From: Acidobacteriota bacterium
Lineage (GTDB): Bacteria > Acidobacteriota > Vicinamibacteria > Marinacidobacterales > SMYC01
Direction of reading: 5' to 3'
NCBI GenBank assembly: GCA_004356105.1
Contig: SMYC01000180.1
Location: 1 to 64,000, forward strand
DNA: 64,000 bases
Below are positions 53,136-62,093 of this stretch, one piece after another. Each line of letters opens with the position of its first letter. The stretch's first letter is position 1. The notes under the pieces are model-generated. The model was given only the letters and a program-made list of their open reading frames with translations. It ran no database searches and had not been told where the DNA came from. The position numbers and the translations under genes were made by a program.

Positions 53136-54140
53136 ATGACTTCGGAGACGGAGACGCGCACGCCGGCCACCCACGCGTCGAAACCCGTGACCATAGCTGA
53201 GATCTCTCTCGTCATCCCGGTCTATAACGAAGAGGGGAACTTACCGAATCTCTATCGCGAGATTACCGAAGTGCTCGAGCCCTATGGGCGCGCTTACGAG
53301 ATCGTGTTCATCGACGACGGCAGCACGGATGCGAGCTTTGCGCTCTTGAGCGCGCTCCATCATCAGGATTCCCGAGTAAGGGTCATCCGTTTCCGGAAGA
53401 ATTTCGGGCAAACAGCGGCTCTCGCCGCCGGTTTTGCCGAAGCGCGCGCGCCGGTCATCGTGACGCTCGACGCGGATTTGCAGAACGAGCCCGCGGACAT
53501 CCCTCGTTTGGTCGAGAGGCTCGATGCAGGCTTCGATATGGTGTGCGGTTGGCGGAAGGATCGGAAAGACCCGTTCCTGTCACGCATCCTTCCATCGACG
53601 ATCGCCAATTGGTTGATCTCGGTCACGACGGGAGTGCATCTGCACGACTACGGCTGCACGCTCAAAGCGTTCCGCGCGGACGTCGTCAAGAATCTTCAAC
53701 TTTATGGCGAGATGCACCGCTTCATTCCGGCCGTTGCGAGCAGCATCGGCGTCTCGATCGACGAAGTCGTCGTCGGCCACCGCGCGCGAAGCCAGGGGGA
53801 GTCGAAATATGGCATCTCCCGAACTTTCCGCGTGGTTCTCGACCTCATGACCGTCAAGTTCCTTCTGAGCTATTCGAGCCGCCCCCTCCAAATCTTCGGC
53901 ACCGCAGGCTTTCTGATGGGCCTCGTGGGTACGTCCGTCGGGGCTTATTTGACCTGGGTCAAGTTCGGGCTGGGAGAGCCGATTGGTGGACGCCCGCTCT
54001 TGTTGCTGGCGAGCTTGCTGATGCTGAGCGGCCTGCAACTCGTGAGCCTGGGATTGGTCGGGGAGCTTCTGGTCAGACTGAATCAAGAAAGCCGCACGCG
54101 CCCACCCTATGCCATCCGCGAGATCCTCGGCGGTGATTGA
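53136..54140 (+). CDS. Glycosyltransferase family 2 (GtrB/DPM1-like with C-terminal TM)
   Basis: SLVIPVYNEEGNLPNLYREI, VFIDDGSTDAS, VTLDADLQNEPADIP, QGESKYGISRTFRVVLDLMTVKFL. Confidence 0.94.
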   Translation: MTSETETRTPATHASKPVTIAEISLVIPVYNEEGNLPNLYREITEVLEPYGRAYEIVFIDDGSTDASFALLSALHHQDSRVRVIRFRKNFGQTAALAAGFAEARAPVIVTLDADLQNEPADIPRLVERLDAGFDMVCGWRKDRKDPFLSRILPSTIANWLISVTTGVHLHDYGCTLKAFRADVVKNLQLYGEMHRFIPAVASSIGVSIDEVVVGHRARSQGESKYGISRTFRVVLDLMTVKFLLSYSSRPLQIFGTAGFLMGLVGTSVGAYLTWVKFGLGEPIGGRPLLLLASLLMLSGLQLVSLGLVGELLVRLNQESRTRPPYAIREILGGD

Positions 54141-54238
54141 CCGGTCGACATCTTCTAGACCGTAGGAGCAAGCAAATCGTGGTCGTCGCCAAGTCGGGGC
54201 CGACCGGCAAGTTAGTTATCATGCCTCTCAGTATATGA
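54137..54238 (+). pseudogene. Possible toxin C-terminal stub (TTG-start frame) coupled to YgiT
   Basis: Frame LTGRHLLDRRSKQIVVVAKSGPTGKLVIMPLSI* ends in ATGA overlap with the YgiT start. Confidence 0.35.
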
Positions 54239-54498
54239 AGAATAGCAGGAAGTCCTCGTCGCTCACCTGCGATCTGTGCGCCGGGCGCGGAGTCAAAATC
54301 CGTTACGTCACTCGAAGCTACGGGAAGGGTGCCAAACTGCTGCTGATCGAGAACGCCCCAGTCGTCAGCTGCCCCAATTGTGGTGAGAGCTATGTCACTG
54401 CGGAAACACTTCATGAGCTCGAGCGCATCAAGACGCATCGACGTTCCTTAGCAAAGAAAAAAAACATCCCTATCGCAAGTTTCCCAAGATCTGCTTGA
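54235..54498 (+). CDS. YgiT/MqsA-type zinc finger protein (antitoxin-like)
   Basis: TCDLCAGRGVKIRYVTRSYGKGAKLLLIENAPVVSCPNCGESYVTAETLHELERI. Confidence 0.85.
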   Translation: MKNSRKSSSLTCDLCAGRGVKIRYVTRSYGKGAKLLLIENAPVVSCPNCGESYVTAETLHELERIKTHRRSLAKKKNIPIASFPRSA

Positions 54499-54601
54499 AT
54501 CAAACCGGTCTAGAACCAAGCGTCACTTTCGCCGTCATCGTCGCTCCAAGCTGTTTTCATGTCGGTCATTGACTTACTAAGCCAGTGACCTATAGTGGAG
54601 A

Positions 54602-54895
54602 GTGCGGTTCGAATGGGACCCGAAGAAGGACAGGGCCAATTGGGAGAAACATGGTCTCTCTTTCCATGAAGTCAAGGAGCTTTTCGCGAACGGTTCTGAC
54701 TTTCTCGAAATCTACGATGAGGAGCACTCAGACGAGGAGGATCGCTTCATCGCGATCGGTCTGATCCGTGTTGGAGTTGTCGCCGTGGTCTATACAGAAC
54801 CTCAGGACGACGTCGTGCGCATCGTGAGTGCGCGGAATGCCACGAAGCGGGAAGTCGTGCTGTTCCGAAGGTTCTATGGGGGTATTCATGAGTGA
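54602..54895 (+). CDS. brnT: BrnT family toxin, GTG start
   Basis: FEWDPKKDRANWEKHGLSFHEVKELFANGSDFLEIYDEEHSDEEDRFIAIGLIRVGVVAVVYTE...RIVSARNATKRE. Confidence 0.9.
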   Translation: MRFEWDPKKDRANWEKHGLSFHEVKELFANGSDFLEIYDEEHSDEEDRFIAIGLIRVGVVAVVYTEPQDDVVRIVSARNATKREVVLFRRFYGGIHE

Positions 54896-55181
54896 CGATA
54901 TTCGCGAACTGACCGAGGAGGATTTCGCACGCTCTATTCCGCGAAAACAACGCGACCGCATCATGCGGGGGCGGATTGATCCAGAAAAAGACATCGTCGC
55001 CCTGCGGCGTTTCGCCGGTTTGACGCAGGAAGAGTTCGCAGAAGCATTGGGCATCAGCGTCCACACCTTGCGCAATTGGGAGCAGGGCCGGCGAAGTCCC
55101 GAGGGACCCGCACTAGCACTCCTGCGCATAGTGGCGCGTCACCCACGAGTGTTACGCGAGAATTTGGCTGCGTCAGCCTGA
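54888..55181 (+). CDS. XRE-type helix-turn-helix antitoxin
   Basis: IVALRRFAGLTQEEFAEALGISVHTLRNWEQGRRSPEGPALALLRIVARHP; 8-nt overlap with the toxin. Confidence 0.88.
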   Translation: MSDDIRELTEEDFARSIPRKQRDRIMRGRIDPEKDIVALRRFAGLTQEEFAEALGISVHTLRNWEQGRRSPEGPALALLRIVARHPRVLRENLAASA

Positions 55182-55308
55182 CAGGCGGCGCTAGCCGAAC
55201 GGTTGGACCGAGCCTAAGACCTGGGGCAAGCTCGGGCTGGGCGCATTTGGGCCATCACGCCGGTCTCGGTCCTGTCCGCCCACACACCTGCCCGCCGGAA
55301 GAACCGCG

Positions 55309-55325
55309 GGGGATTTTAAGTCCTC
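55309..55325. repeat. tRNA anticodon-arm-like direct repeat, left copy (GGGGATTTTAAGTCCTC)
   Basis: 16/17 identical to 59898-59914; the reverse complement is a tRNA-Leu(UAA)-like anticodon arm. Confidence 0.6.
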
Positions 55326-55429
55326 GGAGGGGGCAGGACTATAGGGTTCCATCCGGCCCTCTTGCCCTGAAACCAAGCAGTTACAAGGAAACGATGGCCG
55401 GGATTGTGACCCCTTGATCCCGGTAGTGG

Positions 55430-55700
55430 TTCGAAGGTATTCTCGGCCTCTACCGCGCGCATCGCGTCGTTGATCGCCTGGCCGATGTTCCTACTTTCGG
55501 AGAGCTGAATGAGCGAGGAAAAGCGTGTATTCTCGGGCAGGTAGAGCACTCCCGCCCTGGCCCGCCGGACCGATCTTGCGACGGCCCGTGCTCTTCCCCT
55601 CGAGTTGCCGCGCTGCAGCTAGCTTGAAATTTGCTGTCGGCGTAACGTAGGAAGATCAGTCCGAGGACTGGGACGGAATACTCAGAGGACTTGCTTGCTG
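55430..55700 (-). pseudogene. Degraded N-terminal fragment of type I restriction-modification methyltransferase HsdM
   Basis: Three frames on the minus strand: KSSEYSVPVLGLIFLRYADSKFQA, then [16 protein letters not shown], then [37 protein letters not shown]. Confidence 0.82.
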
Positions 55701-55839
55701 TCCCGCGAGAATTCTATCGCTTCACCGGAATGCCCGCGGGCACTAGTTTTTTGGAATAACGGGTGCCACCACACAGTTGCGGTTCAACTTATCTCTGTAT
55801 TTTTCAATTGATCCAAGACCGCGCTTGATCGTGACGGGC

Positions 55840-57189
55840 TCACTTTCGAGCTCGCGCCGGCTTCGTTTTGGCTGCGGGTTCCGGCGCACCTACTGAATCA
55901 AGCAGGCTGGCCTGGCGAACGGAGTAGCGTACTGGCTTCTTGCTCTTCTCCAATTCGCGTTCATCGACCAGTCGCTTCAACCATTCCTCGGCCTGCCGCT
56001 GCGTCACCGCCATATCCTTGGCAACCTCGGCCGCCTTTTTGGGTTCTCGCACGACGCGATGGATCACGGAGCGCACTGTTTTGAACAGTTCGTCAGCAGC
56101 ATCAAGCGTCAGTGGGTCAGCCGGGTTTGTGGCACTAGATGCGGGCTCCGACGAGGCCACGGCCGGTTCCTCTGGATCCGGTTCTTTGTCTTGCCTCTGA
56201 GGAACGAATGAGAGCTTCTTCTGCTCCAGCGAGGGCGACGACGTGGGGACTGAGGCGGAGAGCGCTACGTTGAGACCATCCGTATCTCCCGGATTCGGCC
56301 AAGGCAGAGCCCCTTTTTTCCTCAGTGCCTCGAGACCGTTGGTTGTTTCGCCGGTCGAGCGCACATAGACGGGCACTAGGTGCAGTTTCTCCAGTTGCTC
56401 TGTCGCACCGGCCCACGTGCCGCCTTTGTCCTGGTCCGTGCTCACGACAAGCGCAGCATCAGACAACGCATAAATAACTTTGTTCCTCTGCATCGCGTGG
56501 CCCACGTTGAAGCCCGCCTTCGGGTCGTAGGGCGAGATCAACACGAGCTGTCCTTGCAGTAACAAATTCCGGTGCTCGCGGGTCATGGCAGTCCTTTCGA
56601 GGCTGTCCGCCAGCACTCCGATGACTTTGCCGCCCGCCTCTAGGGCTCCTCGCATAGCCGCCTGGTCGATGCCCCTGGCGCCCCCGGAAACCAGGGTTCG
56701 CCTGCCAAGCGCCGCGATGCGGCCAATCTCTTGGGTATACTCGATCAGCGCGTCATCCACGTTGCGCGAGCCAACAACTGCGAGACCGCCGCTATCGAGG
56801 ACCTGCCTCTCACCACAGCCGTACAGCAACGCCGGCGAGTCCTCCTTCAGGCGCGCCCTCAGCCGTGGTGGGTATGCCGCGTCGGCCCGGCTCACCACCC
56901 AGATCGCCCTTGCCTGCCAGTGTTCGACGGCCTGGCTCAAGAGGAACCCTCTTGCAAGCAGGCGCTCGAGCCGGTCCTTACGGATGATGCGGTCGCAGTC
57001 TCCGAGGAGCGGATTCGCTGCCGGCGTCACAAGATCGGCCGGCTGCGCCCCCACCTGTCGGAGGTGCATAGCGAGCTTCTTGTACTCCCCGGATGTAAGG
57101 AGGTCGACCCGATTCTTGGGGCGGCCAGCGATCAGCGGAGCTGTCAGCAGTAGGATCGCGTTGGTGTTCGCGGAAAGCATGTCGCTCAT
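55840..57189 (-). CDS. DprA/Smf-like (SLOG superfamily) protein with C-terminal winged-helix region
   Basis: [64 protein letters not shown]; start trimmed to [14 protein letters not shown] overlap with the upstream gene. Confidence 0.9.
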
Positions 57190-59261
57190 TGGCCAGCTCC
57201 CGTCTGAGCAAGAGCCAACGGCCACACCTCGCCGCTCCCCTTCTGGCGAAGCAACCATGCCGCGACGGTGAAAGTCCAACGTGAGTCCACCATGTCATCG
57301 ACGAGCAGCAACGGCTCATCGGAGAGGTCATCATCGACGATCGCCAACGAACCGTCAATATTGCGCGCTTGTTGAGTACTGTTCGCCATCGTCTTCTGTT
57401 CGGGGCGATTGTCCGTCTTGATCAGCACCGGCTTGAACGGAAGACCGAGAGCTGCAGCCAGGCGCCGCGCGAAATCGGGCACCAGGGTCAAATGGCGCAG
57501 CGACGGGACGCAGGTAACCCACGTGGGAGCCGGTTCCGGACTCCATCCCTCGACAAGCTCCTTGCAAGCGATCACCAAATCATCGGAGAAGCGCTTCTCA
57601 TTATACTTCCCCTGTCGTACCAAACTCCCCCAGCCGGAATCCCTCCAGACGCTAAGCGCCATCCCGGGCTCAGCCCGGAGAGCCGAACTGATCCGGCCGG
57701 TGACAGCGTAAAACGGCATTCCCCCGGGTGGCCACTGCTTCCGCGGCTCGATAGGCAGGCGTGTACGGCGCAGGAAGCAAATCGCCTGTTGAACCAGCTC
57801 CGCGTCCGGCGTCGTCGGCAAACGTGGCAGTTTCGGCGCGGAACCTTTGCCTGCCTCTCCATCGAGAGCGCGGATTAGAAAGTCCATGTGCCCAGAAGTC
57901 AGGCTCACGTACTCCTGCATCTGCGCCTGCTCCGCCCGACGAAGACCCGTGAGCCGCCGCGCGCGTTCCCAGAAGGCGTCGCTCAGGTCTGCCGCAGTAA
58001 GCTGCCACTTCGTCCCCTGTTTAGCGATCGGCGCTGGTGATTCTAGCGAGAGCAGCGCGACGGTCTTCTCGACGCGGCCTTTGCTGACGTTAACCTCGCC
58101 CAGGAGCTCCGGAACCGAGAGACCTTGTGGCGCACGCTCCAGGGCATCGAGCACGGCCTTCACCTCTTCCCGAGTGGGGAACGCGCTGTCGATGAAATAC
58201 CCTGTGATGTCGGTCTCTTCCTCGCCGCTCAGCAGCACGCCGTAGGCTGCCTCGAGCGCGCGCCCCGCTCGACCGACCTGTTGGTAGTAGGCCACTACGG
58301 ACCCAGGCGTCTGGTAGTGGATGACGAAACCCAAGTCAGGCTTGTCGAACCCCATGCCCAGGGCGGTCGTTGCCACCAACGCTTTTACCTGATTCTCGAG
58401 AAGAGCCTGCTCCAGTTCGGGTCGGCGGGCGCCGGTCTCACCGGTGTAGGCCTCGACGTTTAGTCCTTGAGATCGGAGCCAAGTGGCCACCTGACCCGCG
58501 TCGCGGACTGTGAGCGTGTAGATGATCCCTTGACCTGGAAGCGCGTCCACGTGCTCCGCCAACCAGGCGAGTCGCTCAGCCTGATTCGGCAAGCGAATGG
58601 TTTGGAGCGCGAGCGATGGACGGTTGAGGTCACCACGTGAAACTGCTAGGTTTGGCCCCAGCACCTCTTCCAGATCTTCCATCACGCGGTTGTTCGCCGT
58701 CGCTGTGGTTGCCAGCAAGCGCAGGTTGGGAGGCAAGGTTCGAACGATCCGCTCAATTAACCGATAGTGCGGGCGGAAGTCGTGGCCCCAATCGGAGATG
58801 CAGTGCGCCTCGTCGATCACGAGCAAGGCGATCTGATCGGCCACTTCCGCTAACACCTCGTCGCGGAAGCGCTCATTGGCCAGCCGCTCAGGAGAGATGA
58901 GCAGGATGTCCACCTCGTTACGGCGGATCGCGTCCTCGACCTCCTGCCACCGCTCCAGATTGTCGGAGTGGATCGTCTCCGCTCGTACCCCCATACGCTC
59001 TGCCGCCGCGATCTGATTGCGCATCAGCGCGAGCAACGGCGAGATGAGCAGTGCAGGGCCGGTGCCGCCTTCACGGAGCAACTTCATGGCGACAAAGTAG
59101 ACGAAGCTCTTGCCCCAACCGGTCCTCTGCACGATTAGGAGGCGCCCACGGCCTTCAACGACGTGCCGAATTGCCTCTTCTTGGCCTTCGCGGAACACCG
59201 CGTCAGGCAGCCCTGAGCCCAGCCGGAGCAGCTCTTCGGCACGCCGCGCATCATACTTCAT
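57186..59261 (-). CDS. RecQ-like DEAH helicase fused to C-terminal phosphoribosyltransferase-like domain
   Basis: [64 protein letters not shown]-terminal [25 protein letters not shown]. Confidence 0.92.
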
Positions 59262-59830
59262 AGCTCAGAACCCTCGGGCGCTGCGTCACGCTCATGGGGT
59301 GTGACGTCCTCGCAGTCGGGGCTCGCGAAGCTCTCATCGAATGACGCCAGCTCCCCAGCTTTATGTGACGAAAACAAAGCCGCCTCGCGGTCTCCGGCGA
59401 GTTCGACGTGAGCGATCATATGTCCACGTCCCGAGCATTAGATTCGAGCATTCGTATTCGCCGGTCTCTGAGCAACGTTGGATTCCACAGTTTAGGCCGC
59501 GGCACGTCCGACGAATGAGCCGAACGGCGATCTACGATCGGCATCCATCTGAGCGGGTACAGAGAGTGACATTGCTCCACTTCCCGTCAAACATATGGAA
59601 AGCTACAGCTTGAGTGGGACTTTTTCGATCTTGCGTTTGATGATGGTTGGCAGGATCAGACGGCGGAGACTCGCGCCCTTGTGCCGAGTTCCAACTCGGG
59701 TGATCGTGTCATATCGATCCGTACTATTGAGTCGTCAGTTCCTGGAAGTCCGATGAGTCTCCAAACAGCACAAGTTGAGCACAAGTCGAGTGCCTGAACA
59801 TTGTCACCTGTCGTCACGGGCACCTTCGAA

Positions 59831-59855
59831 GTCGAAGTGCGTCAGTCACTTCGAC
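59831..59855. repeat. Perfect 9-bp inverted repeat next to the tRNA remnant
   Basis: gtcgaagtg-cgtcagt-cacttcgac. Confidence 0.6.
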
Positions 59856-59856
59856 C

Positions 59857-59925
59857 TGGTACCGGGGGCGGGACTCGAACCCGCACACCTTGCGGTAGGG
59901 GATTTTCAGTCCTCTGCGTTCGCGT
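59857..59925 (-). pseudogene. 3'-half tRNA remnant (class II/Leu-like): anticodon arm, variable arm, T arm, 3' acceptor and CCA
   Basis: Minus strand gaggactgaaaatcccctaccgcaaggtgtgcgggttcgagtcccgcccccggtacca; no matching 5' acceptor/D arm is visible. Confidence 0.65.
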
Positions 59926-60019
59926 ACTCGTGAAATTGTCCACGGGCGACTGAGAACGCGCGCGTACAGGTGCGGAGCCGCAAAGAAAAAATCGCGACTC
60001 CGCGCCTTTTATGTCGAAG

Positions 60020-61045
60020 TTAGCGCGTGCCGATGACGACGTTCGAGTAGATGGCGTCTTCTGGCGTTTCGGCGCGGCCCGCGGCTCCTAGCTCGATTCG
60101 GTGGATGACCGGGTTGTAGGCGCGTGGATAGTGGAAGAAGAAGATCTCGCGATCGTCGATGAATAGACGGCTGACGAGAACCTCTCCTTCGCGTCCCCAC
60201 TCCAAGCGGATGCGGTAGGTCTTCTCGACTTTCCAGCCGCGGAAGGTGCTTCCTACATCGGTTTGACGCCCTTGCGTGATGAAACGGAGTCGGAGCCATC
60301 GGTCGTTGATGGAGCTCCGGCCGTCGAGCTTCTGCAGGCTTACGCGGAAGCGGTTGCTCGTCATGTTGCTCCCGAGGCTGGGATCCCACATGAAGAACAG
60401 ATGCCGTGGGTCGCGCGTGGGGTTGCGGATGTCGAGACCCGAGATGTCGAACTCGAGAAAGCCGGACTCGATCGTCTCCATGTCGTACACGATGAAGTTC
60501 GAGCTTGCGATGACTTTCCAACCTTCTGGCGTGAACTCGCCGCCGCCGACATCGCCCAAGCTCGAGCCGCCGGTCAGAGGATCGAAAAGCAGCACTTGAT
60601 CGGTGCTTCCCCTCGTACTCGCCCCGCCCTGGAACGAGAAGTTCCCGACGCTCGAGAAAGCGCCGGTGGTCGTCCCCACGCTTGCTCGGGCGCGCCAGAA
60701 GAACTGTCCGCTGGCGAGCTCCGAGCCAGCCGTCCAAGACGTCTGACCGGAGCCCTGGGGAATGTTGCTTGCCTGGGCGATGATAGTTCCGAACGCGTTG
60801 TCGGTGGCGATTTGGAACGTGTAAGTTGCGACGCCGCTCCCACCTGTGACTTGCACGTTCGAGACGGTGAGCGTGACTTGGCCCGAGACTTGCGCCTCGT
60901 TCGCCGGACTCACCGGGGTTGGCGCCGAGATGGTGATGCTCACACTGGTAGTGCCGCCGCCGCCTCCACTGCCGCTGTCGCTGCACCCGCCGAGCGAAAA
61001 CCCCGCCACGACGAGCATGGCCAAACGACTCAGTTGTCGAATCAT
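60020..61045 (-). CDS. Lipoprotein with Ig/FN3-like and LamG-like domains, 341 aa
   Basis: Lipobox LGGC; paralogous to the adjacent upstream gene. Confidence 0.78.
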   Translation of the reverse strand: MIRQLSRLAMLVVAGFSLGGCSDSGSGGGGGTTSVSITISAPTPVSPANEAQVSGQVTLTVSNVQVTGGSGVATYTFQIATDNAFGTIIAQASNIPQGSGQTSWTAGSELASGQFFWRARASVGTTTGAFSSVGNFSFQGGASTRGSTDQVLLFDPLTGGSSLGDVGGGEFTPEGWKVIASSNFIVYDMETIESGFLEFDISGLDIRNPTRDPRHLFFMWDPSLGSNMTSNRFRVSLQKLDGRSSINDRWLRLRFITQGRQTDVGSTFRGWKVEKTYRIRLEWGREGEVLVSRLFIDDREIFFFHYPRAYNPVIHRIELGAAGRAETPEDAIYSNVVIGTR

Positions 61046-61067
61046 GATGATGGCTCCTCGTTAATGA

Positions 61068-62093
61068 CTAGTCTCGGCGCACGATGATCAAGTTGCTATA
61101 AATAGCGTCGATAATCGATTCACCGCGTTCGCCGATGCCGAGCTCGATGAAGTGAGTATTCGGCTGGTAGGCGCGGTTGTAACCTAAGGACATGATCTCC
61201 ATGCCATCGAGGAAGACACGAGCCCGGTTTGCCGCGCCGGAAGGGCGCCAGTCCACACGAAAGGTATAAACCTGGCCAGGGTTCCAGTTCGTGAAGTTCG
61301 TGCCGGCCTCTTCCTCCCGGCCTTGCGAGATCCAGCGGAATCGCATGAAGGGCGGGTTGTGCGGGTTGTTCCAGAGTTTTTGGAGGTGGACGCGGAACGG
61401 GTTCGAACGGAACCCTCCTGCCGTAGGGTCCCACATGCCCATCAGCATATGGGAGGCTTCGTTGGCGCCGCGTGGCGTCAGGCCCACGTTCTGCCATTCC
61501 ACATAGCCGTTAACGATGGTCGGGACTTCGTAGCGAATGAAGTCGCCATTGGTGTTGACGCGCCACCCGTTCGGCGTAAAGCTGCCGCCGAATTGCCGGC
61601 CGACCGTCATGCCGTTTGTCAGGACATCGGTGACCACGACCGTCTCGCCAGCACCGGTGCCCGCGCCGGTGCCGAGAACGAATTGCGCGACGACGGACCA
61701 TGAGCCGACGGTGCTGGCCGAGATGCCGCGCGCTCTCCAGAAATAGGTGTCGAGGCCGAGGGCGGAGCCGAGCGTCCAACTGGTTTGACCCGACCCTTGC
61801 ACGATGCCGTCGGCTTGCCGGAGGATGCTGGCGAAGGCTTGGTCGGTCGAGACTTGAAACGTATACGTTATGGTGCTCCCGTCGCTTGCGGTGGCGTTGG
61901 TTACGGTGAGCGTCGGAGGATTATCTCCAATCGGGGAAGATGAGTTTGGGCTGACGATGCCCGGTGCAGAAATCGTGACGGTTACGGTCGTGGTGGTGCC
62001 GCCGCCGCCGCTGTCTCCGCAGCCGATGGCGACGGCAATGACTAGGGTGAGCAAGACTCCAAAGCTGAAGCGTCTGAGTGGTTGAGTGCTCAT
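61068..62093 (-). CDS. Lipoprotein, tandem paralog, 341 aa
   Basis: Lipobox AIGC; shares TYTFQ(V/I)x(T/S)DxAF, QGSGQTSW, (R/L)AY.P..H.IELG..GR.E...DAIYSN with 60020-61045. Confidence 0.78.
   Translation of the reverse strand: MSTQPLRRFSFGVLLTLVIAVAIGCGDSGGGGTTTTVTVTISAPGIVSPNSSSPIGDNPPTLTVTNATASDGSTITYTFQVSTDQAFASILRQADGIVQGSGQTSWTLGSALGLDTYFWRARGISASTVGSWSVVAQFVLGTGAGTGAGETVVVTDVLTNGMTVGRQFGGSFTPNGWRVNTNGDFIRYEVPTIVNGYVEWQNVGLTPRGANEASHMLMGMWDPTAGGFRSNPFRVHLQKLWNNPHNPPFMRFRWISQGREEEAGTNFTNWNPGQVYTFRVDWRPSGAANRARVFLDGMEIMSLGYNRAYQPNTHFIELGIGERGESIIDAIYSNLIIVRRD

Follow-up and report, generated by a model that had tools for sequence, protein, structure and literature searches.

PsyrTA was discovered as a toxin-antitoxin pair of Pseudomonas syringae (Sberro 2013, as cited in PMC8790059), and its listing among defence systems goes back to Millman 2022 (as cited in PMC10121019). 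Its E. coli counterpart, RqlH and RqlI, has been characterised (PMC4670107): RqlH by itself is genotoxic, and this toxicity is mostly lost upon deletion of the phosphoribosyltransferase (PRTase) domain or upon the substitution D663A in its DIVD loop. RqlI relieves RqlH toxicity and co-immunoprecipitates with RqlH, for which the PRTase domain is required (PMC4670107). The same study already compared the pair with ComF and DprA and described RqlH without RqlI, above all in Gram-positives, the RqlH of M. smegmatis having no RqlI. The same pairing of a helicase-PRTase with a DprA-like protein has also been discussed elsewhere (PMC5512222; PMC9122126). In a study in a native host, PsyrTA gave no phage protection, just a growth defect on expression (PMC12409345).

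Identity and domain structure of the pair

The window analysed here is a stretch of 64,000 nucleotides from an Acidobacteriota bacterium. An earlier note on this DNA had proposed that two of its genes form an undescribed defence or DNA-processing system. The two genes and their junction are as follows:

57186 to 59261, minus strand: psyrT/rqlH homologue, predicted toxin, 691 amino acids (PADLOC PsyrT)
55840 to 57189, minus strand: psyrA/rqlI homologue, predicted antitoxin, 449 amino acids from ATG (PADLOC PsyrA)
57186 to 57189, minus strand: ATGA start-stop overlap of 4 bases coupling psyrT and psyrA, read in the sequence

The operon is intact, with both open reading frames present in the order psyrT to psyrA. 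PADLOC matched the first protein to PsyrT (912 bits, residues 1-689 of 691, E 4.8e-275) and the second to PsyrA (451 bits, residues 5-425, E 1.2e-135). Four features that mark members of PsyrTA/RqlHI were found, i.e., a RecQ-like helicase and a C-terminal PRTase in one protein of about 690 residues, a DprA-like gene directly downstream that overlaps on the same strand, the Walker A lysine, the DEAH motif and the PRTase DxxD loop, and a mobile or sporadic occurrence in defence neighbourhoods. To judge from sequence, the pair is an ordinary and apparently intact member of the PsyrTA family. We put the probability of this identity at about 0.97, and identity together with a toxin-antitoxin mode is still highly probable; the window copy itself would presumably be active.

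A new defence system was considered and rejected, as PADLOC names both proteins and the literature describes the pair as PsyrTA/RqlHI. The earlier note had itself held that a match to a named system would speak against its proposal; both genes show such a match, and the designation as undescribed therefore has to be dropped. This removes a false lead, the window pair being a standard PsyrTA/RqlHI copy. Other named systems fitted less well. ShosTA was rejected since the window protein is a helicase-PRTase and since PADLOC ShosA reached 84 bits compared to 451 for PsyrA. Matches to DpdF of the Dpd system were partial, with at most 289 bits compared to 912 in PADLOC, and the NCBIfam DpdF model scored 171 bits at a cut-off of 550.

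The helicase part of the window PsyrT comprises about residues 20-350, with the motifs TGWGKS at 47 and DEAH at 150, and the protein scored above the cut-off of the RecQ subfamily model TIGR00614 (NCBIfam). The predicted AlphaFold model (pLDDT 90.1) gave RecQ helicases as fold matches; the top 50 of this whole-model search were all helicases, none of which was informative on the PRTase domain. The ComF-like PRTase domain occupies about residues 590-685. Pfam did not report this C-terminal domain at E 0.001, and it was aligned by hhalign, using a profile of 74 PsyrT relatives against PRTases of the ComF type encoded within the order of the host, with a probability of 97.9 and an E value of 3.3e-13. 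In this alignment the ten-residue PRTase loop of the window protein (654-663) lies loop-on-loop with VDDVFTTGAT of ComF. DSRWT here replaces the canonical TTGxT, a replacement that is the norm among PsyrT relatives: among the best 80 of at least 590 relatives the commonest loop is DD-x-V-D-S-[R/G]-W-T, and its W is invariant across the complete copies. Residues K51, D150 and D656-D659 of the window PsyrT correspond to K49, D148 and the DIVD ending at 663 of E. coli RqlH, whose importance there was established by mutation (PMC4670107), and all of them are present. The RecQ subfamily match and the ComF alignment bear out the earlier description of the protein as a RecQ-like DEAH helicase with a C-terminal PRTase-like loop, and the predicted ATGA coupling to its neighbour was likewise read in the sequence.

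The segment DDMVDSRWT (PsyrT residues 655-663; window 57273-57299, minus strand) resembles the loop of PRPP synthetases as much as that of ComF. PRPP synthetases possess a DDMVDTAGT-type loop. Residues 628-682 of PsyrT additionally gave a weak match to the ribose-phosphate pyrophosphokinase model PRK02812 of NCBIfam (E 4.8e-4).

The window PsyrA is a DprA/SLOG protein with a Rossmann fold, which matched Pfam PF02481 (DNA_processg_A) above its cut-off with E 5.7e-36. Its predicted model was closest to DprA of S. pneumoniae (3uqz), followed by ShosA of E. coli (8zva), in a Foldseek search. In its C-terminal part, at residues 364-424, the predicted model shows a small helical domain that bears a wing of two strands and resembles a winged helix. 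The PF02481 match and the predicted wing agree with the earlier assignment as a DprA/Smf-like SLOG protein with a C-terminal winged helix.

Distribution of the pair and its insertion into the host genome

PsyrT relatives were collected by a scan of genome contigs; at least 590 were confirmed, and the best 80 of these were taken further. Among these best 80, the relatives are scattered over many phyla, and copies from Bipolaricaulota, Nitrospirae, Solimonas, Yersinia and P. syringae share 71-76% identity with the window PsyrT, that of Pseudomonas syringae 71% over residues 1-688. The copy of Mycobacterium colombiense is 65% identical. Within the order of the host, PsyrT occurred in 3 of 14 genomes, the other two copies being about 50% identical to that of the window. 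Plasmid copies exist, one of them on a conjugative E. coli plasmid, and no PsyrT was found in phage records at E 1e-60. PADLOC neighbourhood counts placed defence genes among the neighbours of psyrTA loci; the counts were made without a matched control set and are to be read as presence rather than enrichment.

PsyrA adjoins PsyrT in 71 of the 76 related loci with enough downstream DNA (from the best 80 of at least 590) and is missing in the other 5. Two loci with PsyrT and without a recognisable PsyrA within 6 kb downstream come from a deltaproteobacterial (L025) and an actinobacterial MAG (L068). As RqlH without RqlI also occurs, restraint of PsyrT by PsyrA is not universal.

The window pair lies within an insertion that carries further genes:

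54141 to 60005, no strand assigned: insertion of about 5.9 kb carrying the pair, absent in two same-family genomes
54235 to 54498, plus strand: YgiT-type zinc-finger protein, orphan antitoxin-like gene (NCBIfam TIGR03831, above cut-off)
54602 to 54895, plus strand: BrnT-type ribonuclease toxin (Pfam BrnT_toxin, E 5.1e-24)
54888 to 55181, plus strand: HTH (MqsA/NadS-like) partner of BrnT (Pfam MqsA_antitoxin, above cut-off)
55420 to 55560, minus strand: N-terminal HsdM remnant of 43 residues, a fragment of a type I restriction-modification methyltransferase, just 3' of psyrA
59868 to 59923, minus strand: degenerate tRNA-like relic near the right insertion edge (Rfam tRNA, 15.3 bits at a cut-off of 29; weak)

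In both same-family genomes (L095 and L096) homology to the window ends at about 54127-54130 and restarts at about 60005-60020, with a spacer of 80-122 bp in between, and the flanks are collinear, with a glycosyltransferase on one side and, across the insertion, an epimerase together with two lipoprotein-like genes in tandem. These empty sites confirm the island that had been suspected. The toxin-antitoxin genes and hsdM remnant that had been noted beside the pair were recovered as BrnT with its HTH partner, the YgiT protein and the N-terminal HsdM fragment. The HTH partner also gave NadS and MqsA-family matches under the NCBIfam cut-offs, and the HsdM remnant matched PADLOC MTase_I (E 4.7e-8) and, slightly under the cut-off, Pfam HsdM_N (E 1.6e-4). 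The tRNA-like relic retains the anticodon arm and the T-arm, has largely lost the D-arm and is possibly a trace of the integration site. No second copy of the relic was found in the genome, and a search for direct repeats at the insertion ends yielded none, just an 11-base inverted match that is explicable by chance. The two tandem lipoprotein-like genes (window 60020-62093, minus strand) are about 44% similar to each other, are kept in the two same-family genomes and had no Pfam match.

By these sequence comparisons the window pair is horizontally acquired and mobile, and its locus sporadic. A vertically inherited housekeeping locus was rejected, since just three of the 14 genomes from the order carry PsyrT and two relatives lack the insertion. 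This distribution also bears on a role in repair or genome maintenance, in which RqlH and RqlI would jointly process DNA and the toxicity of PsyrT alone would be a by-product of an unbalanced pathway. Russell and Mulvey prefer such a cooperative function on DNA, and both the frequent occurrence of RqlH without RqlI in Gram-positives (PMC4670107) and the lack of phage protection in one study (PMC12409345) would agree with it. However, the patchy distribution, the insertion missing in close relatives, the plasmid copies and the toxin and restriction neighbours fit a conflict system better, and we consider a repair module rather unlikely.

A role in natural transformation, with the pair handling incoming DNA like ComFA, ComFC and DprA, is suggested by the three shared domain types, the PRTase being ComF-like and PsyrA DprA-like. 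This parallel, drawn in the earlier note, holds at the level of the domains and had been published before (PMC4670107). However, contig C311 of the genome carries the best DprA (G000:C311:62529), whose family match is stronger than that of PsyrA, and about 10 kb away a ComF-like gene (G000:C311:52283); the window pair was accordingly rejected as the competence locus. In addition, the pair is not kept vertically, with three carriers and two empty sites, and the authors of the RqlHI study detected no transformation in ExPEC isolates (PMC4670107). A transformation role for the window pair thus appears most improbable, and PsyrTA as a mobile toxin-antitoxin pair remains the preferred reading.

Type I restriction genes next to psyrTA

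In four loci psyrTA is nested between hsdS and hsdR, in the order hsdM-hsdS-psyrT-psyrA-hsdR:

L055, 2697 to 12668: nested operon, Vibrio furnissii
L070, 2686 to 12683: nested operon, Providencia heimbachae
L100, 4682 to 14761: nested operon, E. coli plasmid
L116, 4694 to 14773: nested operon, E. coli chromosome

An hsd gene lies directly beside psyrTA in three further loci (L008, L015 and L027). Among 5426 complete genomes of E. coli, 53 contain the psyrTA sequence of the L100 plasmid at 99% identity or more, the flanks having been read in the plasmid and one of the 53. A literature search found no report that links psyrTA to type I restriction operons. The gene arrangements suggest that PsyrTA may be tied to type I restriction, and the nesting provides one testable idea on the trigger of PsyrT.

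PsyrTA might act as a guard of the restriction-modification system, whose loss or inhibition would release the toxin and kill the cell, as PrrC does with EcoprrI. The nested loci, the three direct contacts and the hsdM remnant kept beside the window psyrA point in this direction. However, an hsd gene was found within 6 kb in 10 of 84 psyrTA loci, a low-sensitivity count made without a matched control set, so that the majority has none at this distance; the hsdM of the window is a fragment only, and three of the nested cases share similar restriction-modification genes and may stem from a single event. A guard function is quite improbable in our judgement.

Proposed mechanism and comparison with known systems

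For the preferred reading as a PsyrTA toxin-antitoxin pair, PsyrT would be the toxin, and its ComF-like PRTase domain would harm DNA metabolism if unrestrained, leading to SOS response, filamentation and loss of viability. PsyrA, whose translation is coupled to that of PsyrT through the overlapping start and stop codons of their operon, would bind the PRTase domain and restrain PsyrT. Infection may then upset either PsyrA itself or the state of DNA or nucleotides monitored by PsyrT and PsyrA, and PsyrT would be set free; its PRTase would alter nucleotides or DNA, so that both cell and phage are stopped. ShosT, whose system is the closest parallel to PsyrTA in pairing a PRTase toxin with a DprA-like partner, has been described to disturb purine nucleotide pools, with Gp0.7 of T7 as trigger (Pu 2025, cited in PMC12593503), and by analogy a similar nucleotide-directed poisoning is the likeliest chemical step for PsyrT. 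The substrate of PsyrT may differ from that of ShosT, because its loop reads DSRWT instead of the canonical TTGST. Across the whole family, the PRTase loop DD[MIV]VDS[RG]WT departs from that of ordinary PRTases. The role in conflict that had been proposed gains from the match to a published toxin-antitoxin and defence pair, and we somewhat favour abortive infection as the role of the window pair. As the native-host test found no protection by one PsyrTA (PMC12409345), not every copy can safely be assigned a role in defence.

Among the known systems, ComFA, ComFC and DprA provide the same three activities as the window pair, including a ComF-like PRTase domain, but are encoded by separate genes, with comF present in 14 of 14 genomes of the order, do not form a toxin-antitoxin pair and have the PRTase loop TTG[AS]T instead of DSRWT. 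ShosTA is similar in combining a PRTase toxin with a DprA-like antitoxin, and ShosA was the second-best solved-structure match to PsyrA; in contrast to the window PsyrT, ShosT has a HAD-like N-terminal part instead of the helicase (compare locus L098) and the canonical TTGST loop. RqlHI of ExPEC E. coli has the same helicase-PRTase and DprA-like partner in one operon, and the key residues mutated there are all conserved in the window, but it belongs to another sub-branch of the family; the copy on the E. coli plasmid (L100) is about 48% identical to the window protein and carries G in the PRTase loop in place of R. PsyrTA of P. syringae shares with the window pair the two genes, their order, domain architecture and length; its PRTase loop reads VDDIVNSRWT and differs from that of the window protein, and no other difference of substance was found.
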